Assembly: GCF_004348345.1 (NCBI RefSeq)
Contig: NZ_SMJZ01000006.1
Coordinates: 1-64,000, forward strand
DNA from: Nonomuraea longispora
GTDB lineage: Bacteria; Actinomycetota; Actinomycetes; Streptosporangiales; Streptosporangiaceae
Direction of reading: 5' to 3'
Length of the DNA stretch: 64,000 nucleotides
The position numbers and the translations under genes are program-made. The notes under the pieces are model-generated. The model was not told the origin of the DNA. It worked only from the letters and a program-made list of their open reading frames with translations, and ran no database searches. Of the stretch, positions 1 through 17,360 are shown one piece after another (position 1 is the stretch's first letter; the number at the start of each line of letters is the position of its first letter).

Positions 1-1
1 C

Positions 2-2161
2 CGCCGCCCCCGACCGACCGACGAACCCGCCCCGGACCGCGACAGCAGGCCCGACGACGATGACGAGTTCTTCGACCGCGAGACGATCGCGGTCGAAGAC
101 CGGACGGTCGGCCCGCCGGTGGACCGCCCCGACGATGACGACCTGCCCTACCGTCCGACCGCCGCGTCCAAGCGCGCCCCGATCATCCCGGCCTGGGCGC
201 GCACCCTGCGCAGCATCAGGGCCATGCTGATCTGGCAGGCCAAGGACGCCGCCTACGTCGTCAGCTACCACGGTGTGCGCACGCCGAAGTACACCGCCAA
301 GGCGCTGTGGTACGCCGTTCCCGGCTTGTTCCGCACCCTTGGCCGCCTGCTGCACTGGGCTGCGGCTGAGGAGGGCAACTGGGCGCTTCGCCAGCACGCC
401 GCCGACCGCAACGACCCCGAGGTATGGCTCAAGCTGGACAAGCAGCGTCAGCGTCAGTCCCGCTGGCGCGTGTCGGTGGTCACCGCGCTGGCCGGCCTGG
501 CCTTGGTCGCCCTGCTGGTCCTCCTGCTGGCCGACGTGCCCGGCCTGGTCCGCTCCCTGCTGCCGCTGCTGGCAGGGCTGCCGGACTGGGCGTTGCGCCT
601 GCTCGTGCTCACACCCGCCGTGCCGGTGCTGGCCCGCGTCGGACGGCCCGCCGACGCGCCCATCACCGACCGCGTGAGCGAGGGACCGCGCTACCGCAAG
701 CTCACCGCCGAACTCGTACGGCGCGCCCTGCTCTCGTGCGGCATCGCCGGGATCAACTCCGCAGTGGCCAAGGATCAGCACGCCATCAGCTTCCCCAACG
801 ACATCCACCGTGACGGCCCCGGCCACCTCGCCATCGTGGATCTGCCCTACGGCGTGGAAGCTTCCGACGTGATCGCCCGCCGGGGACGCCTGGCCTCCGC
901 GATGCGGCTCCCGCTCGATCAGGTCTGGCCCGAGCCCGGCACCGGCCACCCCGGACGCCTGGCCCTGTGGGTCGGCTACGAGCCTGCCTCGCAGATGAAG
1001 CAGCCCGCCTGGCCGCTGCTGCGCGAGGGCCAGGTGGATGTGTTCAAGCCCTTCCCGTTCGCCACCACCCCGCGCATGGAGACGGTCTACGCCGAGCTGA
1101 TGTTCCGCAACTGGCTCGACGGCGGCCAGCCCGGTTCGGGCAAGACCTTCGCCTTGCGGTTGAAGGTGCTGGCTGCCGCCTTGGACCCGCGCGCTGAGCT
1201 GCGAATATATGAGCTCAAGGGCGTCGGTGACTTCAAGGTGCTGGAGCCAGTCTGCACCGAGTACGGCAACGGCTTCGACGATGAGACGTTGGCCCGCTGC
1301 GCGGGAATGATCAAGTGGCTCTACCAGGAGTGCCAGCGCCGATCCAAGCGCATCTCGCACTACGCCGCCCTGGGCAAGGCCCCGGAGAACAAGGTCACGC
1401 CCGAACTGGCCTCACTCAAGGGTTCGGGGCTGCATCCGCTCATCGTCGCCATCGATGAGCTGCAAGAACTGATGCTCTCCAAGTACGGCAAGGAAGCCGG
1501 AGAGATCCTTGAGAAGGTCATCAAGCTGGCCCGCGCGCTGGGCATCATCCTGCTGATCGGCACGCAGATCCCCGACAAGGACAGCCTCCCGACCGGCATC
1601 ACCCGCAACGTCAACACCCGCTACTGCCTCAGCGTGGCCGACCAGACGGCCAACGACATGATCCTGGGCACCTCGATGTACAAGCAGGGCTACCGCGCGA
1701 CCGTCTTCCAGCCGGTCGTGGAAGCCGGGTGGGGCATCCTGTCCGGCCTGGGCAAGCCCGCCGCCCGCCGCTCCTACTACGTCAACAGCCAGGACGCCGA
1801 ACACGTCGTGGCCCGCGCGATGAAGCTGCGTGGCCTGGCTGGCACCCTGCCGGAGACGGACACCCAGACCCGTCAAGACGCCCCCGTCTTCGACGTGCTG
1901 TCCGACCTGGCCAACATCTGGCCCGCCGGGGAGAACGCCGCATGGAACGAAGCGCTGTGCGCCCGCCTGATCGAGCTGCGGCCCGACTTCTACACCGGGT
2001 GGAAGTCCGAACAGCTCACCACCGCGCTCAAGCCGTACGGCGTGAGCGTAGGCGACATCGGACGCCGCATCGACGGCAAGGCCGTCACCCGGCGCGGTAT
2101 CCGCTTCGACGACCTCACCGAAGCCGTAGCAGAACGTAACCGCCGAAACGGCACCGACTGA
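2..2161 (+). CDS. FtsK/SpoIIIE-type conjugal DNA translocase (TraB/TraSA-like), 5' partial
   Basis: This is the hexameric ATPase that moves double-stranded DNA between mycelial cells in actinomycete conjugation. The frame is open to the window edge. A GTG at 119 is possible, but the upstream codons continue an acidic, proline-rich stretch, so the true start probably lies outside. Counting from 119, two hydrophobic segments lie at about residues 118-175, a Walker A GQPGSGKT near 335 and a Walker B (VAIDELQEL) near 442. The C-terminal part, after about residue 580, resembles the winged-helix DNA-binding end of TraB proteins (inferred). It lies directly upstream of a palindrome cluster that could be its target site. 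Confidence 0.88.
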   Translation, partial: RRPRPTDEPAPDRDSRPDDDDEFFDRETIAVEDRTVGPPVDRPDDDDLPYRPTAASKRAPIIPAWARTLRSIRAMLIWQAKDAAYVVSYHGVRTPKYTAKALWYAVPGLFRTLGRLLHWAAAEEGNWALRQHAADRNDPEVWLKLDKQRQRQSRWRVSVVTALAGLALVALLVLLLADVPGLVRSLLPLLAGLPDWALRLLVLTPAVPVLARVGRPADAPITDRVSEGPRYRKLTAELVRRALLSCGIAGINSAVAKDQHAISFPNDIHRDGPGHLAIVDLPYGVEASDVIARRGRLASAMRLPLDQVWPEPGTGHPGRLALWVGYEPASQMKQPAWPLLREGQVDVFKPFPFATTPRMETVYAELMFRNWLDGGQPGSGKTFALRLKVLAAALDPRAELRIYELKGVGDFKVLEPVCTEYGNGFDDETLARCAGMIKWLYQECQRRSKRISHYAALGKAPENKVTPELASLKGSGLHPLIVAIDELQELMLSKYGKEAGEILEKVIKLARALGIILLIGTQIPDKDSLPTGITRNVNTRYCLSVADQTANDMILGTSMYKQGYRATVFQPVVEAGWGILSGLGKPAARRSYYVNSQDAEHVVARAMKLRGLAGTLPETDTQTRQDAPVFDVLSDLANIWPAGENAAWNEALCARLIELRPDFYTGWKSEQLTTALKPYGVSVGDIGRRIDGKAVTRRGIRFDDLTEAVAERNRRNGTD

Positions 2162-2173
2162 CCCTTCGGAGGG

Positions 2174-2330
2174 TGCTAGCGCTAGCGGGCAATCCTGCTA
2201 GCGCTAGCACCCCCGCTAGCACCCCAAAACAAGCCATGATCAGGGCGCTAGCACGCTAGCGGCCCTGGCTGACGACACCCTGAATCCGGCCTGGGAGGCT
2301 GTTTTGAACCCCGCCGTGCTCGCTGCTAGC
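2174..2330. repeat. Cluster of eight GCTAGC palindromes (candidate clt or replication iteron)
   Basis: GCTAGC occurs at 2175, 2181, 2197, 2203, 2215, 2247, 2255 and 2325. The first four form two copies of the 13-mer TGCTAGCGCTAGC, 22 bases apart. The cluster fills the gap after the tra stop codon and reaches into the start of the next gene. In Streptomyces plasmids TraB recognises short repeats (clt) next to tra, and replication origins also carry iterons, so either role fits. Function is inferred from position and repetition only. Confidence 0.7.
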
Positions 2331-2555
2331 GCAGCGATCCTCACCCCAATCGTTCTCACTCTCCGTTACCTGACGCTGTGCTACGTCAAGCCCTTCCGCA
2401 CCTGCCGCAAGTGCGACGGCAAGCGCCGCATCCCCAACCGCATCGGCAAAGGCTCCCACGACTGCCGCCGCTGCGACGCCACCGGCCTGCGCCTGCGCTG
2501 GGGCCGTCACGTCCTCAACTACGCCCGCCGCCTGCACCGCGACGGCACCCGATGA
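2304..2555 (+). CDS. Small zinc-finger-like protein of the element
   Basis: The 83-residue protein starts at a TTG, supported by GGGAGG at 2293-2298. It has a hydrophobic N-terminal stretch (about residues 4-27) followed by two CxxC pairs, CRKC and CRRC, with nearby glycines, reminiscent of DnaJ-type zinc modules. The C-terminus is basic. It sits between tra and the replication genes and its stop overlaps an ATG (ATGA at 2552) of the next frame. Small proteins of this type are common in actinomycete integrative elements, but no function is known to me. It could anchor a replication or transfer factor to the membrane, which is speculation. Confidence 0.72.
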   Translation: MNPAVLAASAAILTPIVLTLRYLTLCYVKPFRTCRKCDGKRRIPNRIGKGSHDCRRCDATGLRLRWGRHVLNYARRLHRDGTR

Positions 2556-2581
2556 CCCCGCCAAGCCGAAGGAGACCGCCG

Positions 2582-3478
2582 ATGCGCACTGACCAACTCC
2601 GCTACGCCCTGGCCGCCGCCGCGCGCGGCTGGCCCGTCTTCCCACTCGTGCCCGGCGGCAAGGAGCCGCTCAAGGGCTGGCCGTGGAAGGAACGCAACAC
2701 CACCGACCCCGACGCCATCCGCGACATGTGGGCGCGTCAGCCGTACAACGTCGGCATCGCATGCGGCCCGGCCCGGCTCGTGGTGCTCGACCTCGACACC
2801 CCCAAGCCCGGCGAGATCCCACCGCCCGAGTGGGACCGGCCCGGCATCAACGACGGTGCTGACGTGCTGGCCGCGCTCTGCGACCAGCACGGCCAACCGC
2901 TCCCGCTGGAGACCTTCCAAGTCCGCACCCGCCGGGGAGGAACCCACCTGTACTACAGCGCCGCGGACGGCCTGAACCTGGGCAACACCCAGGGTTCACG
3001 CGGCGGCCTGGCCTGGCTGATCGACACGCGCGCCAACGGCGGGTACGCCGTCGGCCCCGGCAGCACCGTGACCGCCCCCGACGGCAACGGCACCTACCAA
3101 GTCCTCAACCCCGCGTCTCCCGCACCACTTCCCGACTGGCTGGCCGACCTGCTCACCCCGGCCCCGTTGCCCGAACAGCGCCCGGTGGTGGTGGACCTGG
3201 CCAGCGCCGAACGGCACAGCGCCTACCTGCAAACCGCCATCAACGGCGAGTTGGAACGGGTGACCAGTTCACCCGAGCACGGCCACAACGTCGCGCTCTA
3301 CCGCGCCTCCGTCGCGCTGGGTCAGCTCGTGGCCGGTGGCACGCTGTCCGAGCACGAGGTGACCGGCCTGCTGCTCAACGCCGCTCAGAACGTCGGCCAG
3401 CGGTACGGCGAAGCCTGCCGAACCATCGGATCAGGGCTCAAAGCCGGTGCCCGCAGGCCGCGAACGGTCGCCGCATGA
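2582..3478 (+). CDS. Bifunctional DNA primase/polymerase (prim-pol) replication protein
   Basis: The 298-residue protein matches the N-terminal prim-pol fold of archaeo-eukaryotic-type primases. A DxD metal motif lies at D70/D72 (VVLDLDT), the next catalytic histidine at H122 (GGTHLYY), and a further acidic residue at D148 (WLIDTR). The start at 2582 follows AAGGAG at 2569-2574; an upstream in-frame ATG at 2552 overlaps the previous stop but has a poorer ribosome site. Its stop overlaps the start of the helicase gene. Together they form a RepPP-type replication initiation module, letting the element replicate autonomously after excision. Confidence 0.87.
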   Translation: MRTDQLRYALAAAARGWPVFPLVPGGKEPLKGWPWKERNTTDPDAIRDMWARQPYNVGIACGPARLVVLDLDTPKPGEIPPPEWDRPGINDGADVLAALCDQHGQPLPLETFQVRTRRGGTHLYYSAADGLNLGNTQGSRGGLAWLIDTRANGGYAVGPGSTVTAPDGNGTYQVLNPASPAPLPDWLADLLTPAPLPEQRPVVVDLASAERHSAYLQTAINGELERVTSSPEHGHNVALYRASVALGQLVAGGTLSEHEVTGLLLNAAQNVGQRYGEACRTIGSGLKAGARRPRTVAA

Positions 3479-4623
3479 ACAGCTCCGACAAGCCTTCTCA
3501 CCTGCACCTCGTGCGTGGTGATGCCGTCCACGCGCCCGACCTGTCGAGCACTCCGCCGGCGCCCTTCCGCACCTCGTGGACCGCCGACGAACTCATGGCC
3601 ATGACCTTCCCCGAGCCCAAGTACGCCGTGCCCGGCATCCTGGCCGAAGGGCTCTCGCTGCTGGCCGGACCGCCCAAGGTCGGCAAGAGCTGGCTGTCAC
3701 TCAGTACGGCTATCGCCGTCGCCGCCGGAACTAAGGCCCTGGGCTCCATCCCGGTGGAACCCGGCCCAGTGCTCTACCTGGCCTTGGAGGACACCCCGCG
3801 CCGACTCCAGAACCGCATGGCCAAGATCCTGCACGGCCAGCCCGCACCCGCTCAACTCACCCTGGCCACCTCATGCCCGACCCTGCCCAACGGCGGAGCT
3901 GAGCACATCGCACGCTGGCTGGAACGCAACGTCGGCGCGCGCCTGGTGGTCATCGACGTGTTCGCCAAGGTACGCGGCACCACCCCGCCCGGCCTGTCGG
4001 CCTATGACGCCGACTACGCCGCGATGGGGTACGCCAAGCGCCTGGCCGACACGTTCGGCGTGGCTGTGGTGCTTGTGCATCACGTCCGCAAGATGGGCTC
4101 TGACGACTTCCTGGAGCAGGTCTCCGGCACGAACGGTCTGGCCGGTGCCGCTGACTCCACGTTGGTGCTCAAGCGCGCCCGAGGGACTGCCGACGGCGTG
4201 CTCCACATCACGGGGAGGGATGTGGAAGAGGCCGAACACGCCCTGTCCTTCCAATCCGACACCGGCACCTGGCACCTCCTCGACGGCCCGCCCGAGGATC
4301 ACCAACTCGGAGAGACCCGCACGGCCATCGTCCGATACCTGCGCAGCAACCCGAACAGCCCGCCCAAGGACATCGCCGAAGCCATCGGCCTGTCCCGCGA
4401 CACGGTCAAGCGGACATGCGCCCGCATGGCCACCGACGGCCAGGTCGGCGTGGACGCCGCCGGACGCTACCGCCTGCCGGGGACAGAGTCCCCCGGAAGT
4501 GTCCCCGGCGTCCCCGCTGTCCCCGTACCGCCTCTGACCAGCACAAACGCGACCGATCTCCGGGGACAGTCCACCCTGCCCGCTGTCCCCGCTGTCCCCG
4601 CCAAGGAGAACGACCCTTCATGA
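3475..4623 (+). CDS. RecA-like AAA ATPase, replicative helicase partner of the prim-pol
   Basis: The 382-residue protein has a Walker A GPPKVGKS at residues 65-72, a Walker B (RLVVIDVF) near 155, and a VVLVHHVRK motif like the sensor strand of RepA/KaiC-type helicases. Near residues 298-335 a winged-helix segment follows (KDIAEAIGLSRDTVKR). The tail is rich in Pro, Val and Ala with a repeated VPAVP motif. It overlaps the prim-pol gene by four bases (ATGA) and the excisionase gene likewise, so the genes are probably translationally coupled. The likely role is DNA unwinding for element replication, inferred from family and context. Confidence 0.83.
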   Translation: MNSSDKPSHLHLVRGDAVHAPDLSSTPPAPFRTSWTADELMAMTFPEPKYAVPGILAEGLSLLAGPPKVGKSWLSLSTAIAVAAGTKALGSIPVEPGPVLYLALEDTPRRLQNRMAKILHGQPAPAQLTLATSCPTLPNGGAEHIARWLERNVGARLVVIDVFAKVRGTTPPGLSAYDADYAAMGYAKRLADTFGVAVVLVHHVRKMGSDDFLEQVSGTNGLAGAADSTLVLKRARGTADGVLHITGRDVEEAEHALSFQSDTGTWHLLDGPPEDHQLGETRTAIVRYLRSNPNSPPKDIAEAIGLSRDTVKRTCARMATDGQVGVDAAGRYRLPGTESPGSVPGVPAVPVPPLTSTNATDLRGQSTLPAVPAVPAKENDPS

Positions 4624-4823
4624 ACACGGCCATTGAAGACGCCCAGCTCTACCGGATCACCGACGCCATGCAGCTCCTGAGGCTCAGCAGGAGCTTGATC
4701 TACGACCAGATCAGGACAGGCCGCCTGCGCTCAGTCAAGCAAGGCCGCGCCCGTCTGATCACCGCAAACGCCATCCGCGAGTACATCGCACTTCTGGAAA
4801 AGGAAGCAGAGGAAGCAGCCTGA
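4620..4823 (+). CDS. xis: Excisionase, MerR-like helix-turn-helix
   Basis: This 67-residue protein is a single helix-turn-helix: a YRITDAMQLLRLSRSLIYDQ recognition region, a short wing (GRLRSVKQGRARLI), then a C-terminal helix ending in acidic residues. This is the usual form of AICE excisionases, which bend attachment-site DNA and steer the integrase toward excision. Its ATG overlaps the helicase stop (ATGA) and its TGA overlaps the int start (TGATG), so xis and int are co-translated. The size and position immediately upstream of int make the call firm. Confidence 0.88.
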   Translation: MNTAIEDAQLYRITDAMQLLRLSRSLIYDQIRTGRLRSVKQGRARLITANAIREYIALLEKEAEEAA

Positions 4824-5965
4824 TGACCAAGCGACGTAGCAGGGGAGACGGCGGTCTCCACTGGGATGACAAGCGGCAACGCTGGATCGCGACCGCAAGT
4901 CTCGGCTTCGCGCCGGACGGCAAGCGGATCATCAAGCGGGGAAGCGGCAAAACCAAGACGGAAGCCAAGGCCAAGCTCAAGGAGGTACTCAGGGACTACG
5001 AAGACGGGCTGACCATCGCGCCAGGGGAGTTCACCGTCGCTCAGGCCGCGACTGACTGGTTGGCCTACGGGCTCAGCGGTCTGGACCCGAGCACCGTTGC
5101 GACGAACACGACCCTGGTCAAGACACACATCATCCCGGCACTGGGTAAGCGGAAGCTCCGCGACCTCAGTGCACAGGATGTGGACAAATGGCTGGCAGGC
5201 AAGGCCAAGACGCACAGCACGAGCACCGTGGCCCGGCTCCACTCGTGTCTGAATCGGATCATCAAGCGCGCCATGGCGCGGGACAAGGTCCGTCGGAACG
5301 TCGTTGAGCTGTGCCGAGTGCCTCAAGGGAAGGAAGGGCGTCCGTCCAAGGCGCTCACGATGGCTCAGGCCGAAGAGGTGCTCAAGGCAGCCGAGGACAA
5401 GAACCTGTACGCCTACATCGTGGTCTCCCTGCTCACCGGCGCGCGAACGGAGGAACTCCGCGCGCTGCGCTGGGATCACGTTGACCTCGTGGGCAACCTC
5501 GACGGCACCCCACCGATCCCGCCGTACGTCGCCGTGTGGCGCTCCGTGCGGAACGGGGGAGACACCAAGACCCGCAAGTCACGGCGCACTCTGGCACTCC
5601 CCAAACGGTGCGTCGACGTGCTGATCGAGCAACAGGAAGCCCAGCAGAAGGAACAGGGCGACGCCTGGTCAGAGCACGGCCTGGTGTTCGCGTCCAACGC
5701 CGGAACCGAACTGGACGCGGCCAACGTACGGCGCGCGTTCCGCCGGGTCATCAAGCGCACCAGCTTGAACCCGAAGGAGTGGACGCCCCGAGAGCTGCGG
5801 CACAGCTTCGTGTCCCTGCTCTCCGACAACGGGACGCCCCTGGAGGAGATCTCCCGCTTGGTCGGGCACAGCAGCACCGCAGTGACAGAGCTGGTCTACC
5901 GGAAGCAGATTAGGCCCGTGCTCCAAGGGGGAGCGGTGGTCATGGACCGCATCTTTCAATCGTGA
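4823..5965 (+). CDS. int: Tyrosine site-specific integrase
   Basis: The 380-residue protein has an N-terminal arm-type DNA-binding part, a SAM-like core-binding domain (about residues 70-165) and a catalytic domain. Visible active-site residues are R208 (TGARTEELR), a lysine near 252, R326 (RELRHSFVS), H349 (VGHSS) and the nucleophile Y359 (LVYRK). The first box II histidine is replaced by arginine (R323), a substitution I have seen in other actinomycete integrases. It would recombine the element with the 3' end of the nearby tRNA-Ile gene. It converges on the HEPN gene, with a hairpin between them. Confidence 0.93.
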   Translation: MTKRRSRGDGGLHWDDKRQRWIATASLGFAPDGKRIIKRGSGKTKTEAKAKLKEVLRDYEDGLTIAPGEFTVAQAATDWLAYGLSGLDPSTVATNTTLVKTHIIPALGKRKLRDLSAQDVDKWLAGKAKTHSTSTVARLHSCLNRIIKRAMARDKVRRNVVELCRVPQGKEGRPSKALTMAQAEEVLKAAEDKNLYAYIVVSLLTGARTEELRALRWDHVDLVGNLDGTPPIPPYVAVWRSVRNGGDTKTRKSRRTLALPKRCVDVLIEQQEAQQKEQGDAWSEHGLVFASNAGTELDAANVRRAFRRVIKRTSLNPKEWTPRELRHSFVSLLSDNGTPLEEISRLVGHSSTAVTELVYRKQIRPVLQGGAVVMDRIFQS

Positions 5966-5985
5966 ACGTCAGCGCTCGGCCGGCT

Positions 5986-6012
5986 GTCCTCCTGCGACTA
6001 CCGCAGGAGGAC
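5986..6012. terminator. Bidirectional hairpin between int and the HEPN gene
   Basis: An 11-bp perfect stem, GTCCTCCTGCG with CGCAGGAGGAC, flanks a five-base loop in the 55-base gap between two convergent genes. There is no T-run, which is common for actinomycete terminators. Confidence 0.7.
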
Positions 6013-6020
6013 GGCATCGC

Positions 6021-6985
6021 TTAGTCTCCAGAGCTGATGTAGTCGAAGCAGGTGGAGCAGATGTTCATCTCATCTGGCCCCGCCGGGATCCACTCACCGC
6101 ACCGAGAGCACCGATCAAGCTCGCCCCGCTCACCGTAGTACCCACAAGAAAAGCATCCTTGGGTGGCTTGACCGACCCGGTGGTCACGATCCCATCCACC
6201 AACGCCCTATCCGCACAGATGTGGCAATGGCCCACGATCCATTCGCCACCGTCCTTCACGGTCGCGTACTCGCTCTCCCCTAGGACGTTGGACGCATAGT
6301 CATCAGCGGCCACGACACCCGCAAGGCGGTAAGCACAGAACAGGCAACTGCCAGGCTCACCATCCGCGAACAAATATGCCTCGTTGAGGCACTCAGGGCA
6401 CTTGACCACAGGAACACCCGCTTGGGAGATGACGGGCTTGAGTGATTTCATCCGCTCGCGGACCATCACCTCGATCTCTCGGATCCGCTCCATGACGCTG
6501 GCATACGTGTCGTTGATGAGTTCGCGTTCGTCGTCAGGTGCGCCCGGGGCGAGTTCCTTCTCGATGAAGCGCAGGAGAGCCTCCATCGCACGGGCGACTG
6601 TAGCGCGCGTCGCCAATGGGTTATCTCCGATGAGCGCGAAGTGCGCTATCTGGTTACGCGTCCGGTTCAAGCTTGTGATCCGCTGACGGTCCTTCTCTGA
6701 GATCGCCACGTTCGCGATACCCGCAAGCCGGTCCAAGGCCTGATCGATGGTGGCACTCTTGAAGTCTCCGGCCTCATACTTCGTGCGCTGTGCCTCCCGA
6801 GGATCCGCCACGACAAGCGTCCAATGCTCGCGAGCCAGCCGAACCTTAAGGAGGGTCTCGATGCTGGCACTGAGATGAAGAGCGGCGTACTTTACCTCCC
6901 TCGCACCACCGCTACCGAGTAGCTCGACGGCGCTTTCGAGGAAGTCCAAGCCGTTGTTGACCACATGCCAGTTGATCTCAACCAT
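6021..6985 (-). pseudogene. HEPN-domain, triple zinc-ribbon protein, interrupted by a -1 frameshift
   Basis: The start at 6985 is supported by GGGAG at 6991-6995. As read, the frame ends at 6065. A HEPN RNase-type motif RNQIAH (Rx4H, R110-H115) lies in an alpha-helical N-terminal half, followed by CPEC/CLFC and CHIC. After about residue 265 the frame runs into non-protein-like sequence, while the adjacent frame continues with CFSC, CSRC and CSTC and stops at 6021. One extra G in the run at 6191-6193 (CCC on plus) would give one 321-residue protein with three complete zinc ribbons. It may be a true mutation, an assembly error or programmed frameshifting. HEPN proteins often act as RNA-cutting toxins or defence factors; that role here is inferred. 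Confidence 0.75.
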
Positions 6986-7076
6986 GGCTACTCCCTCGCC
7001 ACGCAGAGGCACTCGGTCGCGCTCCGTTGGAGACAAGATCCGGAACGGTAGTCACACAGTTAGACACTCAAGCAGC

Positions 7077-7114
7077 AAAATGGCCGCTTCCCGAAGATCG
7101 GATAGCGGCCTTTT
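7077..7114. terminator. Hairpin flanked by A and T runs downstream of tRNA-Ile
   Basis: GGCCGCT (7082-7088) pairs with AGCGGCC (7104-7110), with AAAA before and TTTT after, so it can end transcription in either direction. It lies 17 bases past the tRNA 3' end on the element side. It would stop tRNA transcripts from entering the element, and lies just upstream of the promoter region of the HEPN gene. Confidence 0.7.
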
Positions 7115-7130
7115 GACTGGTCAAACTATG

Positions 7131-7176
7131 TGGGGCTACCAGGACTTGAACCTGGGACCTCTTCCTTATCAGGGAA
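7131..7176. other. Putative right attachment site in the tRNA 3' half
   Basis: Elements of this type recombine within the T-arm and anticodon-arm half of a tRNA gene and carry a copy of that end so the tRNA stays whole. The tRNA here is intact and its 3' end faces int. The exact core cannot be set without the left end of the element. Confidence 0.5.
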
Positions 7177-7204
7177 GCGCTCTAACCGTCTGAGCTATAG
7201 CCCC
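7131..7204 (-). tRNA. ileT: tRNA-Ile (GAT anticodon)
   Basis: The minus strand folds as a complete cloverleaf. The acceptor stem GGGGCTA pairs with TAGCCCC, the anticodon stem CTTCC pairs with GGAAG around loop CTGATAA (anticodon GAT at 7170-7168), and the T-arm is CCAGG-TTCAAGT-CCTGG. The discriminator base is A at 7131 and no CCA is encoded. Location downstream of gyrA and the DUF3566 gene is conserved in actinobacteria, where a tRNA-Ala usually follows. That gene is not seen here, probably because the element separates the two. Confidence 0.97.
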
Positions 7205-7291
7205 GCACGCACACCGAACGTTATCGCATCCGGCGATCGGAGGCGAACCGGTTTGTTCGGTCGGGAAAAGCTTACCGTGTCCGGCCTGCTG

Positions 7292-7324
7292 CTCGCGCCG
7301 TGCCGGGCGAGGGCACGGCGCGAG
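7292..7324 (-). terminator. Terminator of the gyrBA-DUF3566 transcript
   Basis: A 13-bp perfect stem (CTCGCGCCGTGCC with its complement, seven-base loop) begins 16 bases after the DUF3566 stop codon. Confidence 0.75.
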
Positions 7325-7339
7325 CACACCGGCTACGGC

Positions 7340-8023
7340 CTATTCGGCCTCGCTGAAGGTCACCTCGACGCCCCCGACGAGGTCGGAGGCGACGTTGTAG
7401 ATGACCGCCCCCAGCGTGGCCAGAGCCGTGATGAGCACGACGTTGACCGCTCCGATCAGGGCGGTGTAGCCCAGGATGCGCACGGGCTCGAACCAGGACG
7501 CGATGTCGATCGGGATCGAGTTCTGGCCCTGCTCGCCCTGGCCGAGCTGGTTGACCAGGTCGACGATCGAGTCGAACACGCCCAGCGCCGACAGCACGCC
7601 GTAGAGCACGGCCACCGCCACGAACAGCACCACGAAGCAGACCAGGGACACCACGAAGCTGAACTTCATGGCCGACCATGGCTCGATGCGGCGCAGGACC
7701 AGGTGGGCCTTGCGGGGGAGCCGCGCCCCCGCGCCGCCCGACTTCTTCTTCGGCGCCTCGGCCGCGGGCGGCGGAGGTGCCTCCGTGGCCAGCGACGGGC
7801 GGATGCGTACCGTGTCGTTGCCCTCCGGCTGCTGCGACGACTGCTTCTGCGGAGGCGTCGGCGGCGGCGCGGGCTTGGCGTCGTCCTTGGCCGGGAAGGG
7901 CCTGCCCTGTGCGGGCGAGGTGTCCCGGGTTTCGTCGAAGGTCTCTTTCTCTGTGGGTCTCTTCGGTTGTTGTCCGTTACCCGAAGCCGCCTTTGCCCTG
8001 GCGGTGCCACCTTGGGCGCTCAT
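7340..8023 (-). CDS. DUF3566 family membrane protein
   Basis: The 227-residue protein has a disordered N-terminus rich in Pro, Gln and Lys (about residues 1-95), then the DUF3566 region. That region has a first transmembrane helix (FVVSLVCFVVLFVAVAVLYG), an amphipathic loop and a second helix (LIGAVNVVLITALATLGAVI), and an acidic end. The gene follows gyrA by two bases, so they are co-transcribed. This linkage of gyrA, DUF3566 and tRNA-Ile is a standard actinobacterial arrangement. Function is unknown. Its length is typical of the longer actinomycete members. Confidence 0.92.
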   Translation of the reverse strand: MSAQGGTARAKAASGNGQQPKRPTEKETFDETRDTSPAQGRPFPAKDDAKPAPPPTPPQKQSSQQPEGNDTVRIRPSLATEAPPPPAAEAPKKKSGGAGARLPRKAHLVLRRIEPWSAMKFSFVVSLVCFVVLFVAVAVLYGVLSALGVFDSIVDLVNQLGQGEQGQNSIPIDIASWFEPVRILGYTALIGAVNVVLITALATLGAVIYNVASDLVGGVEVTFSEAE

Positions 8024-8025
8024 GA

Positions 8026-10524
8026 CTACTCTCCTCCCCCGTCTTCCTCACTCTCCATCGAAGTCACCAAGGACTCCGCGTTCCGGGCGAGGGCCACCAC
8101 GCTGTCGCCTTCAGCGAGATTCATCAATCGCACTCCCATGGTCTGACGGCCGGACTGTTTGATCTCTCCGGCACTCGTCCGGATCACCCCGCCGGCAGAC
8201 GTGATCGCGAAGACCTCGTCCTCTGGATTGACCATGACGGCTCCGACCAGCTTGCCACGGGAGGATACGATTTTCGCAGTAAGCACGCCCCTACCGCCAC
8301 GTCCTTGAACTGGATATTGCTCCACTGGCGTCCGTTTTGCGTACCCAGCCTTCGTGGCGATAAGCACATGTTGACCGTCGGCGATGCGATTCATGGCGAG
8401 AAGTTCGTCACCGTCGAGGAACCTCATCCCGATGACGCCACTGGTCGCACGCCCCATGGGCCGCAGCGCGTCGTCGGAGGCGGTGAACCGGATCGACTGC
8501 GCTCCCTTGGAGACGAGCAGCAGATCGTCTTCCTCGGAGACCAGGCGGGCTCCGATGACCTCGTCGTCGTCGCGCAGGTTGATCGCGATCAGGCCGCCGG
8601 ACCTGGGGGAGTCGTACTCGGCCAGGCGCGTCTTCTTGACCAGCCCGCTGCGGGTGGCGAGGACCAGGTAGGGGGCGACGTCGTAGTCACGAAGGGCGAG
8701 GACCTCCATGACGGTCTCGTCGGGCTGCATGGCCAGCAGGTTGGCCAGGTGCATGCCGCGGGCGTCGCGGCCGGCGTCGGGCAGTTCGTACGCCTTGACC
8801 CGGTAGACCCGGCCCTTGTTCGTGAAGAACAGCAGCCAGTGATGCGTCGTGGTGACGAAGAAGTGGTCGACGATGTCGTCCTGGCGCAGCTGCGCCCCGC
8901 GTACGCCCTTGCCGCCGCGCTTCTGGGCGCGGTAGAGGTCGGTGCGGGTGCGCTTGGCGTAGCCTCCCCGCGTGATCGTGACGACGATCTCCTCTTCGGC
9001 GATCAGATCCTCGATCGACATGTCGCCGTCGTAGGCGATGATCTCGGTCTTGCGCTCGTCGCCGTAACGGCCGACCAGCTCGGCCAGCTCGTCGTTGACG
9101 ATCTCGCGCTGGCGGGCCTCGCTGGCCAGGATCGAGTTGTACTCCGCGATCTGCGTCATCAGGGAGTCGTACTCGTCCTGGATGGCCTGCCGCTCCAGGG
9201 CGGCCAGCTTGCGCAGCTGCATGTCGAGGATGGCCTGCGCCTGGATCTCGTCGATCTCCAGGAGCCCCATGAGGCCCTGCTGGGCGGCCGAGGCGGACTC
9301 GGAGGCGCGGATGAGGGCGATGACCTCGTCGAGCCGGTTGAGGGCCTTCAGCAACCCGCTCAGGATGTGGGCGCGCTCTTCGGCCTTGCGCAGGAGGTAG
9401 CGGGTCCTGCGGACGATGACCTCGATCTGGTGGGCCACGTAGTGCCGGATGAACTGGTCGAGCCGCAGGGTGCGCGGCACCCCGTCGACCAGCGCCAGCA
9501 TGTTGGCGCCGAAGGTGTCCTGGAGCTGGGTGTGCTTGTAGAGGTTGTTGAGCACGACCTTGGCGACCGCGTCACGCTTGAGCACGATCACCAGGCGCTG
9601 CCCGACCCGCGAGGAGCTTTCGTCGCGTACGTCGGCGATGCCGGTCAGCTTGCCCTCACGCACCAGCTCCGCGATCTTCAGCGCGAGGTTGTCGGGGTTG
9701 ACCTGGTACGGCAACTCGGTGACGACGAGCGCCTGCCGGCCCTTGTCCTCCTCGACCTCGACCACGGCCCGCATGGTGATCGAGCCGCGCCCGGTGCGGT
9801 AGGCGTCTTCGATGCCGCGCCGGCCCACGATCAGCGCGCTTGTGGGGAAGTCGGGCCCCTTGACCAGTCTGATCGAGGCTTCGAGCAGCTCTTCGTCGGT
9901 CGCCTCCGGGTTCTCCAGCGCCCACCTGACCGCCGAGGCGACCTCGCGCAGGTTGTGCGGGGGGATGTTGGTGGCCATGCCGACGGCGATGCCGCCCGAG
10001 CCGTTGACCAGCAACTGCGGGAAACGCGCCGGCAGGACGTCCGGCTCCTGCGACTTTCCGTCGTAGTTGGGCCGGAAGTCGACGGTCTCCTTGTCGATGT
10101 CGCGCAGCATCTCCATGGCGATGGGCGCGAGCTTGCACTCGGTGTACCGCATCGCCGCCGCGGGGTCGTTGCCCGGCGAACCGAAGTTGCCCTGGCCGTC
10201 GACCAGCGGATAACGCAGCGACCACGGCTGCGCCAGGCGCACCAGCGCGTCGTAGATCGAGGTGTCGCCATGGGGGTGGTAGGTGCCCATCACGTCACCG
10301 ACGACGCGGGCGCACTTGAAGTAGCCGCGGTCGGGGCGGTAGCCACCGTCGTACATCGCGTAGAGCACCCGGCGGTGCACCGGTTTGAGCCCGTCGCGCA
10401 CGTCCGGCAGCGCCCTGGACACGATGACGGACATCGCGTAGTCCATGTAACTGCGCTGCATCTCGGACTGGATGTCCACAGGCTCGATGCGGTCAGCCGG
10501 GGGAGTGGTGTTCACGTCCGTCAC
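8026..10524 (-). CDS. gyrA: DNA gyrase subunit A
   Basis: The 832-residue subunit cuts and reseals DNA in the A2B2 gyrase that introduces negative supercoils. Tyr127 (MRYTE) is the DNA-linking nucleophile. The quinolone-resistance region reads [10 protein letters not shown], with Thr88 at the position of E. coli Ser83 and Asp92 at Asp87. The C-terminal beta-pinwheel carries the GyrA box (QKRGGKGV). It starts with GTG and follows gyrB by 84 bases in the same direction. The tail ends in a short acidic, glycine-rich stretch. Length and motifs are complete. Confidence 0.98.
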
Positions 10525-10608
10525 AGGTTGAGGTCCTTCTTCATGGAACGATGAGCCAGGTCCTGCGGCTCACCGCAGGTAGCGGAATCTGCACCCACGG
10601 CCGGTCGC

Positions 10609-12892
<2,284 letters not shown>

Positions 12893-13393
12893 CTACCCAT
12901 AGGTGTCGCCGGGGCCCCGGCTTCCGGTCACCCGCAACCCGCCTGACGGGCGCGGGGCGTTCTGCGGTCCTCTGACCTTGACCTTCGTCACCGTGCCGTC
13001 GCCCAGTTCCTCGTTGAGCCTGCGTACGAGGGTGCGCGCGAGCATCCGCACCTGCGTGGCCCAGGCCGTCGAGTCGGCCGCGATCAGCACCACGCCGTCG
13101 TCGAACGACTCGGGCCTGGTGTGGGCGGCCAGGTCGGGGCCCACCATGTCGGCCCAGCGCCCGAACACCCCGCCGACGGCCGCCGAGCGTTCCCAGCCGC
13201 GATCGGCGAGCAGGTCGGCGATGGCCCGTCCGAAAAGTTGTGGATCGCCGCCCTCCCTGCGCGGCCCCGCGGCCCTGCGCCTGGGCTCGCGCCGGGGGAG
13301 CTGGCCGCGTTTGGCCGCGTCGGCCTTGGCCTGGGCGAGCTTCTCCCTGGCCATCGCTGCGCCCTTGGCTGTGGGGTTGTCCTCAGCGGACAC
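12893..13393 (-). CDS. DUF721 (DciA-like) protein
   Basis: The 166-residue protein has a basic, charged N-terminal third ([14 protein letters not shown] onward) and a C-terminal DUF721 domain (about residues 55-140), with [19 protein letters not shown] and a [12 protein letters not shown] motif. DUF721 is the domain of DciA, which loads or assists the DnaB helicase in bacteria lacking DnaC. The place right after recF in the origin cluster is conserved in actinobacteria and fits a replication role. It overlaps the recF 3' end by 11 bases and starts with GTG. Confidence 0.9.
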
Positions 13394-14627
13394 GGGTCAC
13401 ACTCCCCTCCGCGACGTCGTACCTGCCGCCTGACAGCTCCTTGGGGACGTCGTCGGGCACTGCCGCGGTGATGAGCACCTGCTCGGCCGGTGCGACCATC
13501 TCGGCGAGGCGGCGTCTGCGCTGGGTGTCGAGCTCGGCGAACACGTCGTCGAGGATCAGCACGGGATCCCCGCCGTCGGCGCGCAGCAGGTCGTAGGCGG
13601 CCAGCCGCAGCGCCAGCGCGAACGACCAGGACTCGCCGTGGCTGGCGTAGCCGCGGGCGGGCAGGTCGCCGAGACCGAGGATCAGGTCGTCGCGGTGCGG
13701 GCCGACGAGCGTGACGCCCCGCTCCAGCTCGGACTGGCGCACCTCCAGGAGGCGCGCGCGGAGACGCTCCTCAAGGGTTTTCCCCAAGTCTGTGGATAAC
13801 GTCTGTGTATCGGAAGATCCCCGCTCACCGGCGTGTTCGGGCAGTTCGTCACCCTCACCGTTGTCCCCACCTGTGGACAACGTACTGCGATAGGCCATCG
13901 TCGCCGGAGCGCTCGCGGGGGCGAGCGCGGCGTAGGCCCCCGCGACCAGCGGGCGCAGCGCCTCGATGAGCTCGAGCCTCGCCTGCAACAGCTCGGCGCC
14001 GTGCCTGGCGAGATGGGCGTCCCACACCTCCAGAGTGCTCAGTACGTCGCCCGCGCCCGCCGCGGCGAACCCGGTGTCGCGTTCCGCCCTCCTCGCGCTC
14101 CTGGCGCCTCTGCGGGCCTGCGCGGCAGTGCGGAGCAGGGCGCCGCGCTGCTTGAGCACCCGGTCGTAGTCGGCGCGCACTCCGGCGAACCTGGGGGCCC
14201 TGGCCACCAGCAGGTCGTCGAGGAACCGGCGGCGCTCCGACGGGTCTCCCTTGGACAGCGTCAGGTCCTCGGGGGCGAACAACACCGTGCGCAGCAGACC
14301 CACGACGTCGCGCGCCCTCGGCACGGGCGAGCGGTTGAGCCTGGCGCGGTTGGCCCGGCCCGGGTTGATCTCCAGCTCGACGAGCGCCCGGCGGTCGTCG
14401 CGCTGGACGGCACAGCGTACGACCGCGCGCGTGGCGCCCTGCCGGACGAGGGGCGCGTCGCTCGCCACCCGGTGGCTGGAGTGCGTCGCGACGTAGCCGA
14501 GGGCCTCGACCAGGTTGGTCTTGCCCTGGCCGTTGGGCCCCACGAACGCCGTGACGCCCGGCTCCAGGCCGAGCTCCACGGACGCGTAGGACCGGAAGTC
14601 GGTCAGCGAGAGGTGGGCGACATGCAC
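13383..14627 (-). CDS. recF: DNA replication and repair protein RecF
   Basis: RecF is an SMC-like ATPase that loads RecA at gaps with RecO and RecR. The Walker [11 protein letters not shown] is at about residues 30-39, the ABC-type signature lies in the C-terminal third ([13 protein letters not shown]), and the Walker B is [11 protein letters not shown]. At 414 residues it is slightly longer than the usual 360-390. The extra length is a linker around residues 245-290 ([18 protein letters not shown] and following), and that linker encodes two perfect DnaA boxes. The gene starts with GTG and is followed by the overlapping DUF721 gene. Confidence 0.96.
13791..13880. promoter_or_regulatory. Two perfect DnaA boxes inside recF
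   Basis: TGTGGATAA at 13791-13799 and TGTGGACAA at 13872-13880 are exact reverse complements of TTATCCACA and TTGTCCACA. They lie 81 bases apart in the recF linker, about 3 kb from oriC. Binding by DnaA is inferred from sequence. Confidence 0.55.
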
Positions 14628-14687
14628 CTCACGAAGGTTAGTCGGCCTCGCCCGTCACTGGGGTCACCGGCTCGCGATGGACGGCTG

Positions 14688-15632
14688 CTAGCGCTCGCCC
14701 GGGCCGGGCGGCGTGACGTCGGCGCCCGGCGAGTCGGCGCCCTTGGCGGTGCTGCCTTCCGCCGCGGTGGTCGCGTGGCCGCCGAACTGGTTGCGCAGCG
14801 CCGCGACGACCTTCATCGCGGGGGAGTCGTCCTGGCGCGAGGCGAACCTCGCGTAGAGCGCGGCGGTGATGACCGGCAGCGGAACGGCGTGGTCGACGGC
14901 CGCCTGCACCGTCCACCGGCCCTCCCCGGAGTCCTGTGCGTAGCCGCGCAGCTGGTCGAGGTGCTCGTCGTCGTCGAGCGCGCGCACCAGCAGGTCGAGC
15001 AGCCAGGAACGGATCACGGTGCCGGTGCGCCAGCTGCTGAAGGAACCCTTGACGTCCTTGACCACGTCGGATGCCTCGAGAAGCTCCCAGCCCTCCGCGA
15101 AGGCCTGCATCATGCCGTATTCGATGCCGTTGTGGACCATTTTCGCGAAGTGCCCGGCACCGACGTCCCCGGCGTGCACGAAGCCGTCCTCGCCCTCGGG
15201 CTTGAGCGTCTCGAAGATCGGCATCAGCCGCTCGACGTGGGAGGAGTCGCCGCCGCACATGAGCGCGTAGCCGCTGTCCAGGCCCCAGACGCCGCCGCTC
15301 ACGCCGCAGTCGACGAACCCGATGCCCTTCTCCGCCAGCTCGCCGGCGTGCCTCTGGTCGTCGCCGTAGTGGGAGTTTCCGCCGTCGACGACGATGTCGC
15401 CCTCGTCGAGCAACTCGCCGAGATCGTCGACGGTGGTCTGGGTGGGCTTGCCCGCGGGCACCATCACCCAGACCGCGCGTGGGGCTCGCAGGCGCTCGAC
15501 CAGCTCTTTCAGGCTGGCCACGTCGCTGATGGCCGGGTCGCGGTCGTAGCCGACGACCTCATGACCGCCGCGGCGCAGCCGCTCGGCCATGTTGCCGCCC
15601 ATCTTGCCCAGTCCGACCATGCCGATCTGCAT
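14688..15632 (-). CDS. gnd: 6-phosphogluconate dehydrogenase, decarboxylating (short form)
   Basis: This enzyme oxidises 6-phosphogluconate to ribulose 5-phosphate with release of CO2. The NAD(P)-binding fold opens with GMVGLGKMGGNMAERL, the substrate region reads GGNSHYGDDQRH and DCGVSGGVWGL, and the catalytic lysine lies in HFAKMVHNGIEYG. At 314 residues it belongs to the short gnd type (YqeC/GntZ-like), often NAD-preferring, and not the 470-residue form. The tail after about residue 285 is low-complexity. Its place between dnaN and recF is a known actinomycete feature. Confidence 0.94.
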   Translation of the reverse strand: MQIGMVGLGKMGGNMAERLRRGGHEVVGYDRDPAISDVASLKELVERLRAPRAVWVMVPAGKPTQTTVDDLGELLDEGDIVVDGGNSHYGDDQRHAGELAEKGIGFVDCGVSGGVWGLDSGYALMCGGDSSHVERLMPIFETLKPEGEDGFVHAGDVGAGHFAKMVHNGIEYGMMQAFAEGWELLEASDVVKDVKGSFSSWRTGTVIRSWLLDLLVRALDDDEHLDQLRGYAQDSGEGRWTVQAAVDHAVPLPVITAALYARFASRQDDSPAMKVVAALRNQFGGHATTAAEGSTAKGADSPGADVTPPGPGER

Positions 15633-15676
15633 GTTGTGTCCCCCTCGTCAGGCTTCCATCATCCCCGAAGGCCGGG

Positions 15677-16816
15677 TCAGCCGGACAGGCGGATGGGCAT
15701 GATCAGGTAGCGGTAGTCCGCCGCGGCGGCGTCGTCCACAGGCTTGCCACCGGTGAGGATAGCGGGCTTCGTCGACGTGGTCATCTGCAGCCTGGCCACG
15801 TCGGAGTCGATCGCGCCCAGCCCTTCCAGCAGGAACTGGTGGTTGAAGGCGATGTTCATCTCCTCGCCCTCGTAGTCGACGGGCAGCGCCTCGACGGCCT
15901 GTGCCTCGTCGCCGCTGCCGGCTTCCAGCACGACCTCGCCGCTCTTGAAGGCCAGCCGTACGGGGGTGTTGCGCTCGGCGACCAGGGCCACCCGCTTGAC
16001 CGCCTCGACGAACGGGCCTGTGGACAGGTCGGCGCGGGCGGAGAACTCGGTCGGCAGGAGCGAACGGTATTTGGGGAACTCGGGGTCGAGCAGCCGGGTC
16101 GTGGTGCGCCGCCCGGCGCTGGAGAAACCGATCATGCCTTCGCCGGTGCCGCCGGCGGAGCTGAGCGCGATCTCCACCTCGGCGCCTGTCGCGCCGAGCG
16201 CTTTCGCGGTGTCGGCGAGCGTCTTGCCGGGGATCATCGCGATCGCGGAGAAGTCGGGCTGCCCCGGCTGCCACTTGAGCTCGCGCACGGCCAGCCGGTA
16301 GCGGTCGGTCGCGGCGAGCGTCACCGTGTCGCCCTCGATCTCCATGCGTACGCCCGTGAGCATCGGCAGGGTGTCGTCCCGGCCCGCGGCGACGGCGACC
16401 TGACCGACGGCCGAGGCGAACACGTCGCTGCCGACGCGGCCCGCTGCCGGCGGCATCGCGGGGAGCGACGGGTAGTCCTCCACAGGCATGGTCAGCAGGG
16501 TGAACCGCGCGCTGCCGCACGTGACGACCGCCTTGGCGCCGTCGACCACGAAATCCACAGGCTGTGCGGGAAGGGACCGGGTGATCTCGGCGAGGAGCTT
16601 GCCCGAGACGAGTACGACGCCCGGTTCGCCGGTGTGGACCTCGAGCGTCACCTCGGCGGAGACCTCGTAGTCGAATCCGGAGAGCTTGAGCTGCTGCTCG
16701 TCCGTGACCTCCAGGCGCATGCCGGCGAGCACGGGCACCGACGGTCGCGCCGGGAGACTGCGTGCCGTCCATGCCACCGCCTCAGCGAGGACGTCTCGCT
16801 CGATTCGGAACATCAC
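15677..16816 (-). CDS. dnaN: DNA polymerase III sliding clamp, beta subunit
   Basis: The 379-residue clamp subunit forms a ring dimer around DNA and tethers the replicase. The three repeated clamp domains are visible, with typical segments LAGMRLEVTD, DTLPMLTGVRMEIEGD and TDRYRLAVREL. The C-terminus ends YRYLIMPIRLSG, the protein-binding pocket region. The first codon is GTG at 16816, immediately followed by an ATG at 16813; either may be used. It lies just downstream of oriC, transcribed with dnaA and gnd in the same direction. Confidence 0.97.
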   Translation of the reverse strand: MMFRIERDVLAEAVAWTARSLPARPSVPVLAGMRLEVTDEQQLKLSGFDYEVSAEVTLEVHTGEPGVVLVSGKLLAEITRSLPAQPVDFVVDGAKAVVTCGSARFTLLTMPVEDYPSLPAMPPAAGRVGSDVFASAVGQVAVAAGRDDTLPMLTGVRMEIEGDTVTLAATDRYRLAVRELKWQPGQPDFSAIAMIPGKTLADTAKALGATGAEVEIALSSAGGTGEGMIGFSSAGRRTTTRLLDPEFPKYRSLLPTEFSARADLSTGPFVEAVKRVALVAERNTPVRLAFKSGEVVLEAGSGDEAQAVEALPVDYEGEEMNIAFNHQFLLEGLGAIDSDVARLQMTTSTKPAILTGGKPVDDAAAADYRYLIMPIRLSG

Positions 16817-17360
16817 GGTGATCAGCCTCCTGGGTTCGTCGTTGCTTCAAGGATCTCAAGGATCCACCCTCCCGGACTCGCGCTCCGGGAGAACCCCTCT
16901 ATGGGTCTTTGAGTTTCTTAGTAAGAGAGATAAGAGGTCATCACACTAGGGGCTGTGGGTACTGTGGACAACCGGCGTCTTGGCTGGTCAGAGGCCATAT
17001 TTTCATCCACCGACGCTGTGGGTGACGCCTGGGGAGAACTTCCGCGCCTGGGGACAGAGATTTTTCGCCCACAGGCCGTCCCCAGATCTTGGTGCCTTCA
17101 TCCACGGCCGGGCCGGGGTTATCCACGAGGTTTCCACAGGTTATCCACGGGGTATGAGAGGCCCTTCTGGAGCCCCAGATCCGTTGTTCACAGTCTGTCC
17201 ACACACTGTCCACTGGTAGTCCCCAGGTTCTCCCCAGGATGTCCCCACCGTTGTCCCCAACCATTGTGGACGGATTTTTCCCAGCATTGTCGGGCGAACG
17301 GCGAGTGAATTTTTGTGTTTCCGCTGGTCCACAGCGTTTTCCACAGGCTGTGTATGAAAC
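16817..17360. other. oriC: Chromosomal replication origin oriC (dnaA-dnaN intergenic region)
   Basis: This 544-base gap contains a perfect DnaA box TGTGGACAA (16963-16971), two TTATCCACG (17119-17127 and 17141-17149), CTGTCCACA (17195), CTGTCCACT (17206), TGTGGACGG (17265), TGGTCCACA (17325) and TTTTCCACA (17337), plus further near matches. The stretch 16905-16945 is less G/C-rich than its surroundings and could be an unwinding region. The dnaA-dnaN gap is the known oriC site in Streptomyces and Mycobacterium. Confidence 0.9.

Follow-up and report, generated by a model that had tools for sequence, protein, structure and literature searches.

A palindrome array after tra in a Nonomuraea longispora integrative element is a candidate clt whose half-site word varies with the Tra winged helix

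Why should 156 bp directly behind a tra gene hold eight copies of one six-base palindrome? In the window that we analyzed, the first 64,000 nucleotides of a contig of Nonomuraea longispora (NZ_SMJZ01000006.1), GCTAGC begins at positions 2175, 2181, 2197, 2203, 2215, 2247, 2255, and 2325, spanning 2175–2330. The 64-kb window contains 12 copies of the word, 8 of them within these 156 bp, against 9.99 expected from dinucleotide shuffles; as 32 of 100 shuffles reach 12, the total is within the range of the shuffles and the word is not enriched window-wide. We also confirmed that the 13-mer TGCTAGCGCTAGC occurs twice with a period of 22 nt (2174–2186 and 2196–2208), which, together with the eight copies, had led the original prediction to propose either a new type of clt or a replication origin used by the prim-pol. 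A similar density elsewhere in the genome could have spoken against a special array; in the 9.16-Mb genome of this strain, the 12-mer GCTAGCGCTAGC was found only at the two array places, compared with 28 occurrences of its letter-reversed control word.

The array belongs to an actinomycete integrative and conjugative element (AICE), with an integrase, a Rep module, and an FtsK-type Tra near a tRNA. The window starts at the first base of the contig, and bases 2–5965 are the right part of the element, whose left end lies beyond the contig. The genes follow the order tra, small CxxC protein, Prim-Pol, AAA_25 protein (with a C-terminal helix-turn-helix), Xis-like gene (a helix-turn-helix), and tyrosine integrase, with Pfam matches to PF01580 (below cut-off), PF09250, PF13481, PF12728, and PF00589, and a tRNA-Ile is found at 7130–7204. 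The tra gene (2–2161, forward strand, 719 codons in the window) encodes a TraB/FtsK-like DNA translocase, whose match to PF01580 (FtsK_SpoIIIE) has an E value of 8.8e-05 and 22.5 bits, below the cut-off of 24; its start is off the contig, and Tra residues are numbered here from the GTG at 119 (680 aa).

Residues 571–680 of Tra (1829–2158, forward strand) form a predicted winged-helix (gamma-like) domain, modeled by AlphaFold2 from 37 homologues with a mean pLDDT of 78.6, rising to 86–89 in the wing blocks. The wing strands of the model are residues 644–651 and 654–662, residue 615 lies in a helix, and the wing beta-hairpin (residues 648–659; 2060–2095, forward strand) contains the columns 648, 655, 656, and 659 that track the half-sites, as described below. 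Structure comparison of the domain gave a best Z of 6.4 and matches that, judged by their titles, were mostly, although not in every row, winged-helix proteins; matches of this strength would support only a general winged-helix fold. FtsK gamma was absent from the best 50 structural matches, which we did not count against the gamma-like reading, and the isolated C-terminus matched no Pfam domain.

Apart from the copy at 2325, the array lies between the tra stop codon (2159–2161) and a small gene that starts at 2304. Its core consists of two copies of the palindrome GCTAGCGCTAGC, each made of two half-sites, at 2175–2186 and, 22 bp further, at 2197–2208. An inverted repeat covers both (2171–2212), with 19-nt arms (2171–2189 and 2194–2212) that are 95% complementary. 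A third half-site follows at 2215–2220, its CTAG placed 7 nt past palindrome 2, then a conserved box TGATCAG (2237–2243, forward strand), which reads TGACCAG in many relatives, and a fourth block with two half-sites, GCTAGC-AC-GCTAGC (2247–2260). The gene behind it (2304–2555, forward strand) encodes a small CxxC protein in Spd-like position, without a Pfam match. Seven of the eight GCTAGC copies are therefore half-sites of one site, namely those of the two palindromes, the third half-site, and the fourth-block pair. The eighth falls inside the small gene and probably is coding sequence rather than part of the site: in the relatives described below, GCTAGC occurs at about the same offset in 27 of 79 loci with a G-type site and in 7 of 32 with a T-type site (34/111 in total), named after the outer base of the half-site word, and TCTAGA in none of them, so that this copy ignores the site type. 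The array as a unit of eight copies was thus right for seven of them.

We then considered how far this layout is conserved. The own genome contains three further tra stretches, C310 (79% DNA identity), C183 (cut at a contig end), and C54, and in C54, aligned after the tra stop, the layout is kept with palindromes CTTCCGGAAG instead of CTAGCGCTAG. We searched for tra in 297 family genomes, of which 101 gave a match at E ≤1e-40, and in 345 genomes of the order, of which 102 (mostly of the same family) did so at E ≤1e-90, and the loci analyzed are a subset of all matches; 49 named tra loci represent Nonomuraea, Micromonospora, Salinispora, Dactylosporangium, Frankia, Pseudofrankia, and other genera. 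A total of 187 loci included the Tra C-terminus followed by 130 nt or more of further sequence; 49 of them were duplicates, and their removal left 138 distinct loci. Loci with a cut C-terminus or a shorter downstream region, as well as L001–L008, L010, and L012, which duplicate other loci or miss the end, were left out.

A script searching for two near-palindromic 12-mers at any spacing from 18 to 27 found the doublet in 111 of the 138 loci, not including L030, which was dropped as a chance palindrome, and the spacing was 22 bp in all 111. The doublet is present in 54 of 55 loci at 60% Tra identity or more, in 43 of 58 at 40–50%, and in 14 of 25 at 30–40%, the layout being conserved down to 39% identity. 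It is missing in 27 of the 138 loci, 26 of them below 45% Tra identity and one close. The close one, L009 of the own genome (79%-identical Tra), has a decayed doublet, GCTGGCAATAGC and GCTATCGCTAGC, at 11790–11850, with a spacing that is still 22 bp.

The other parts of the site are kept as well. CTAG stands exactly 7 nt past the second palindrome in 109 of the 111 doublet loci, the 12-bp cores of the doublet are complementary with at most one mismatch in 110, and a TGACCAG-like box, searched with a loose pattern, follows the third half-site in 107 and precedes the second half-site pair. Under this constant layout, the word itself varies between GCTAG, TCTAG, GCTTC, and GCTAC, giving palindromes such as GCTAGCGCTAGC, GCTAGGTCTAGC, TCTAGGTCTAGA, GCTTCCGGAAGC, and GCTACCGGTAGC. 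We therefore rejected GCTAGC as the functional unit, since the palindrome word is swapped while the layout stays. What recurs after tra in close relatives and other AICEs is the layout, with a variable word; the idea of a clt built on the GCTAGC palindrome holds as to the kind of site, but several other words can stand in the place of GCTAGC.

The outer letter changes in the separate parts together. Among the 79 G-type loci, the third half-site reads CTAGC at +7 in 78, and the last half-site of the fourth block ends in C in 77; among the 32 T-type loci, the corresponding counts are 30 for CTAGA at +7 and 30 for a final A. In 108 of the 111 loci, the outer letter of the third half-site changes with the palindromes. 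Changes of the inner letters, on the other hand, are confined to the palindromes, as GCTAGC is retained as the third half-site in every one of the 6 GCTTC and 4 GCTAC loci. This suggests that the half-sites are probably not equivalent and not all read alike.

Outside this set, the exact doublet was found in 3 of 396 genomes across the phylum, own genome included, always beside tra, and 19 viral contigs contained the doublet pattern, 18 of them with a Tra match within about 350 nt. The remaining one (L260, 39–158) has tandem GTCTAGGCCTAGAC palindromes that are not beside tra and come without a third half-site. We also noticed other layouts among the Tra relatives. A clade with an NRKG wing (L086, L087, L088, L119, L124, L139, and L140) has an GAACGCCCC-like hairpin after tra, followed by CGCTAGA-like repeats. 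The pairs L034/L080 and L040/L085 have a common repeat layout after the stop, with CGCTACC in one and CGCGACC in the other, another apparent word swap.

We asked which part of the neighboring proteins changes with the word. Results showed that the outer base goes with Tra residue 659, in the wing: among G-type loci the residue is R in 78 and Y in 1, and among T-type loci it is I in 21, K in 9, T in 1, and R in 1. Exceptions to this code are L046 (G-type, Y), L141 (mixed arms, R), and L259 (G-type, K; from the hold-out described below), and loci that have GCTAG-like words without the doublet may carry NRYG or NRKG (L110, L132, and the L086 group). Among 662 Tra columns, residue 659 is the best predictor of site type, with a balanced accuracy of 0.984, and the runner-up, residue 615 (0.931), is also in the C-terminal domain. 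Residue 659 was first spotted by eye in 63 loci that overlap the 111. In a hold-out of 23 loci found by the DNA pattern, one of which (L260) has no Tra domain, 21 of the 22 with the domain fit, with R in 19 of 20 G-type loci and K in both T-type loci, the latter class comprising 2 loci only.

On a Tra tree built without the winged-helix domain (110 of the 111 rows), the site type switches 10 times or more, and in 10 independent pairs residue 659 follows the site type in 9.8 on average and never goes the opposite way (median p 0.002 over 200 random pairings). A near-minimal pair is given by L053 (GANRRGIV, palindrome GCTAGGTCTAGC) and L060 (GANRIGIV, TCTAGGTCTAGA). As to the inner letters of GCT sites, position 4 (A or T) varies with residues 655/656, as judged from only 6 deviating sequences and with residue 676, outside the wing, scoring equally in the 53 closest rows. 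Position 5 (G or C) varies with residues 648/655, from only 4 deviating sequences and with three gappy N-terminal Tra columns equal on accuracy.

The small CxxC protein is as close to the site as Tra is, and one could imagine that it is the reader. A homologue was found by tblastn after the site in 109 of 111 site loci, and SpdA2 of pIJ101, a small zinc-finger-like spread protein, is reported to bind a repeated 12-bp palindrome, sps, at or near its own gene (PMC4170104, accessible part). Here, however, the word follows Tra more closely than the small protein, whose best column reaches 0.90 over all 109 rows, compared with 0.98 for Tra, and 0.78 against 0.98 on the same 55 rows of the divergent group. 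Moreover, the small proteins of L053 and L060 are closely similar by eye despite the different site types. For these reasons, we set aside the Spd-like protein as reader, a role that we consider very improbable. As a protein equally adjacent to the site tracks the word less well, linkage alone does not explain the pattern of Tra and word, although the tra end and the site may also be inherited or exchanged together, as one cassette, which could account for part of the co-variation.

Considering these results, the array is very likely the clt of the AICE, its half-sites being recognized by the winged helix at the C-terminus of the Tra that the element itself encodes. Physical binding of Tra, hexamer loading, and a role in transfer are what we infer from the sequences. 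In such a mechanism, the winged-helix domain would read half-sites of about 5–6 bp, four of which would form two palindromes about two helical turns apart, with a fifth 7 nt downstream and two more after it. The cluster would bring several Tra subunits together on the DNA, and these might nucleate the hexameric pump that would move double-stranded DNA into the recipient. Elements that change wing and word together would gain a private transfer specificity, and plasmids or elements that have the site but no tra could be moved in trans.

Winged helices of FtsK-type pumps are known to read short genomic words, as FtsK gamma does with KOPS, which are single directional 8-mers spread over the chromosome; our site would be similar in the type of reader and resembles them in its short words but differs in being one clustered site, with symmetric palindromes and one-sided half-sites. 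A TRS of the pSVH1 type consists of the 8-bp word GACCCGGA in direct repeat, and as this 8-mer has no copy in positions 1–17875 of the window, site included, the array is not a TRS of that type. Like the pSVH1 TRS, whose repeats are read by the TraB C-terminal winged helix, it consists of short repeats, while the known clt words of pSVH1, pIJ101, and pJV1 are direct repeats, and the word CCGCACASS, taken from PMC3583192, is absent from our site. In addition, the specificity of pSVH1 TraB is reported to reside in helix alpha3 (PMC3583192, accessible part), whereas wing residues track the word here.

A parallel in position is the clt of the Streptomyces theta plasmid pWTY27, which, according to the accessible text of PMC3583192, comprises 16 bp of traA and the adjacent 159 bp, contains direct and inverted repeats, and was footprinted with TraA. 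Both sites occupy about 160 bp directly 3' of tra and contain repeats, and this match in position led us to read the array as a clt. The repeat words of pWTY27, however, are TGACACC and CCCGCCC, and no fixed palindrome doublet is described in that part of the paper. The array would therefore represent a new clt type, as the original prediction had proposed, and appears to be one variant of a widespread layout in which the word changes with the wing of the pump. Two lines of evidence support the proposal well, namely that the site is conserved beside tra and that it co-varies with the Tra winged helix.

The other half of the proposal, an origin or priming site of the prim-pol/AAA_25 module with hairpins and repeats recognized by the downstream replication proteins, fared differently. 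The strong inverted repeat (RNA fold z −5.8) and the Prim-Pol and AAA_25 genes just downstream in the window would fit an origin, and among the 27 of 111 site loci with at least 4.9 kb of downstream sequence, 21 have a prim-pol match. The remaining 6 have none, in a tblastn search with the prim-pol of the window as the one query, which a very divergent homologue could escape, and two loci with the same site (L044 and L072) carry DnaB-N/DUF3987 genes and no prim-pol match in 5.6 kb. Moreover, the match lies anywhere from 358 to 4,917 nt after tra, whereas the distance between site and tra is nearly fixed, and the word follows the Tra wing. As the site is retained in loci with no prim-pol match and so does not regularly accompany that gene, it is best read as a TraB-bound clt; we rejected the prim-pol origin, to which we give very little credence.

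We also looked for sites away from tra. Among the 297 family genomes, 53 contain the exact doublet pattern, at 69 places in total, and the reversed control pattern has no match in any of the genomes listed. The site begins 16–47 nt beyond a tra match in 45 of the 69 places, and two more are linked to tra at contig ends (in L230, the Tra C-terminus stands just before the site; L248 continues L041, whose tra ends at the end of another contig). The other 22, in 17 loci (L231–L247, stretches of 7.7–14.5 kb each), are away from any tra found. Within these stretches, beyond which a tra could still follow on contigs covered in part, searches by profile and by tblastn (six Tra queries, thirteen of the C-terminus) found neither Tra nor its winged helix, and none of the places is among the family tra matches listed at E ≤1e-40.

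The clearest case is p2 of N. gerenzanensis (NZ_CP084060.1, L271), a complete circular plasmid of 7,699 bp that was typed as non-mobilizable and has no annotated transfer gene. It encodes ParA and a GntR regulator and carries a solo T-type site at 5632–5665; in the genome of this strain, the AICE tra that we found is of the G type. When the site was used as a short query against plasmids, only short or weak matches were obtained beyond N. gerenzanensis. Solo sites also occur in L239 and L243, on contigs of 24.2 and 14.5 kb that each have a ParA-like gene, and by integrases or replication genes (L231, L232, and L241). The tra-less L232 combines RepSA and HNH with an AAA_25-like match and an integrase that shares 73% identity with that of the window. 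Five loci from four genomes (L240, L241, L242, L245, and L246, the last two alike and from the same genome) contain two sites 0.2–6.1 kb apart, always one G-type and one T-type, each with its third half-site at 7 nt as seen by eye.

By eye, the type of the solo site does not consistently agree with that of the resident Tra: both Tra types reside in G099, and a T-type solo site meets a G-type resident Tra in G015, G265, and G267. Few ORFs were scanned in L233, L234, L237, L238, L244, and L247 (none in L233, L234, L238, and L244), and only L247 shows an element gene, an integrase. These six may be chromosomal clt-like sites or remnants, and more generally some solo sites could have been left behind by tra genes since lost, or could be clt-like sites of the chromosome (perhaps L237/L238). 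Overall, the tra-less sites and the pairs of G-type and T-type sites suggest hitchhiking on the TraB of other elements.

The solo copies also bear on an RNA function, namely a hairpin that would terminate or attenuate transcription from tra into the genes behind it. The long complementary arms and the complementary cores of nearly all doublet loci would suit a hairpin, but no terminator-like site was found, each arm is nearly palindromic by itself, the half-sites outside the hairpin change their outer letter along with it, and copies exist away from tra. These features fit half-sites in duplex DNA better, so we rejected the terminator, which seems to us very improbable. Equally hard to credit is an operator for autoregulation by Tra or another regulator, with no role in transfer. 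Repeated palindromes are typical of operators and the site is upstream of the next gene, but no promoter-like match appeared in a simple sigma-70 scan, solo copies in loci without a Tra-like domain would miss this regulator, and the site follows tra wherever tra is present.

Returning to the array as a clt read by Tra, an element with no more than the cis site could use the machinery of another, as proposed for mobilizable elements. In the accessible parts of the respective papers, Frankia elements without tra or rep are called possible "mobilizable integrating elements" (PMC3218068) and defective AICEs are considered possibly mobilizable by a helper (PMC9513070), with no cis site named in either. 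The situation here is different in that transfer would be of double-stranded DNA by TraB, with no relaxase or oriT. We tentatively propose that TraB conjugation may have its own parasites, translocase-less plasmids and integrated elements that bear a clt, some with two specificities, and are exported by a resident TraB, the wing and the half-site being a swappable code that partitions transfer groups. In the literature searched, which included few subscription papers and some sources in part, we found no description of the doublet, of a wing code, or of clt-bearing elements without tra.

In conclusion, a large AICE family now has a candidate site and residues that apparently read it. A 2022 study of Streptomyces AICEs asks, in its accessible text, whether each element uses its own TraB or hijacks that of another, and notes that no clt motif has been described for the model AICE pSAM2 (PMC9513070). 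With a candidate site and its apparent reading residues at hand, this question becomes testable by point changes, and bare sites would predict which "non-mobilizable" plasmids may move.
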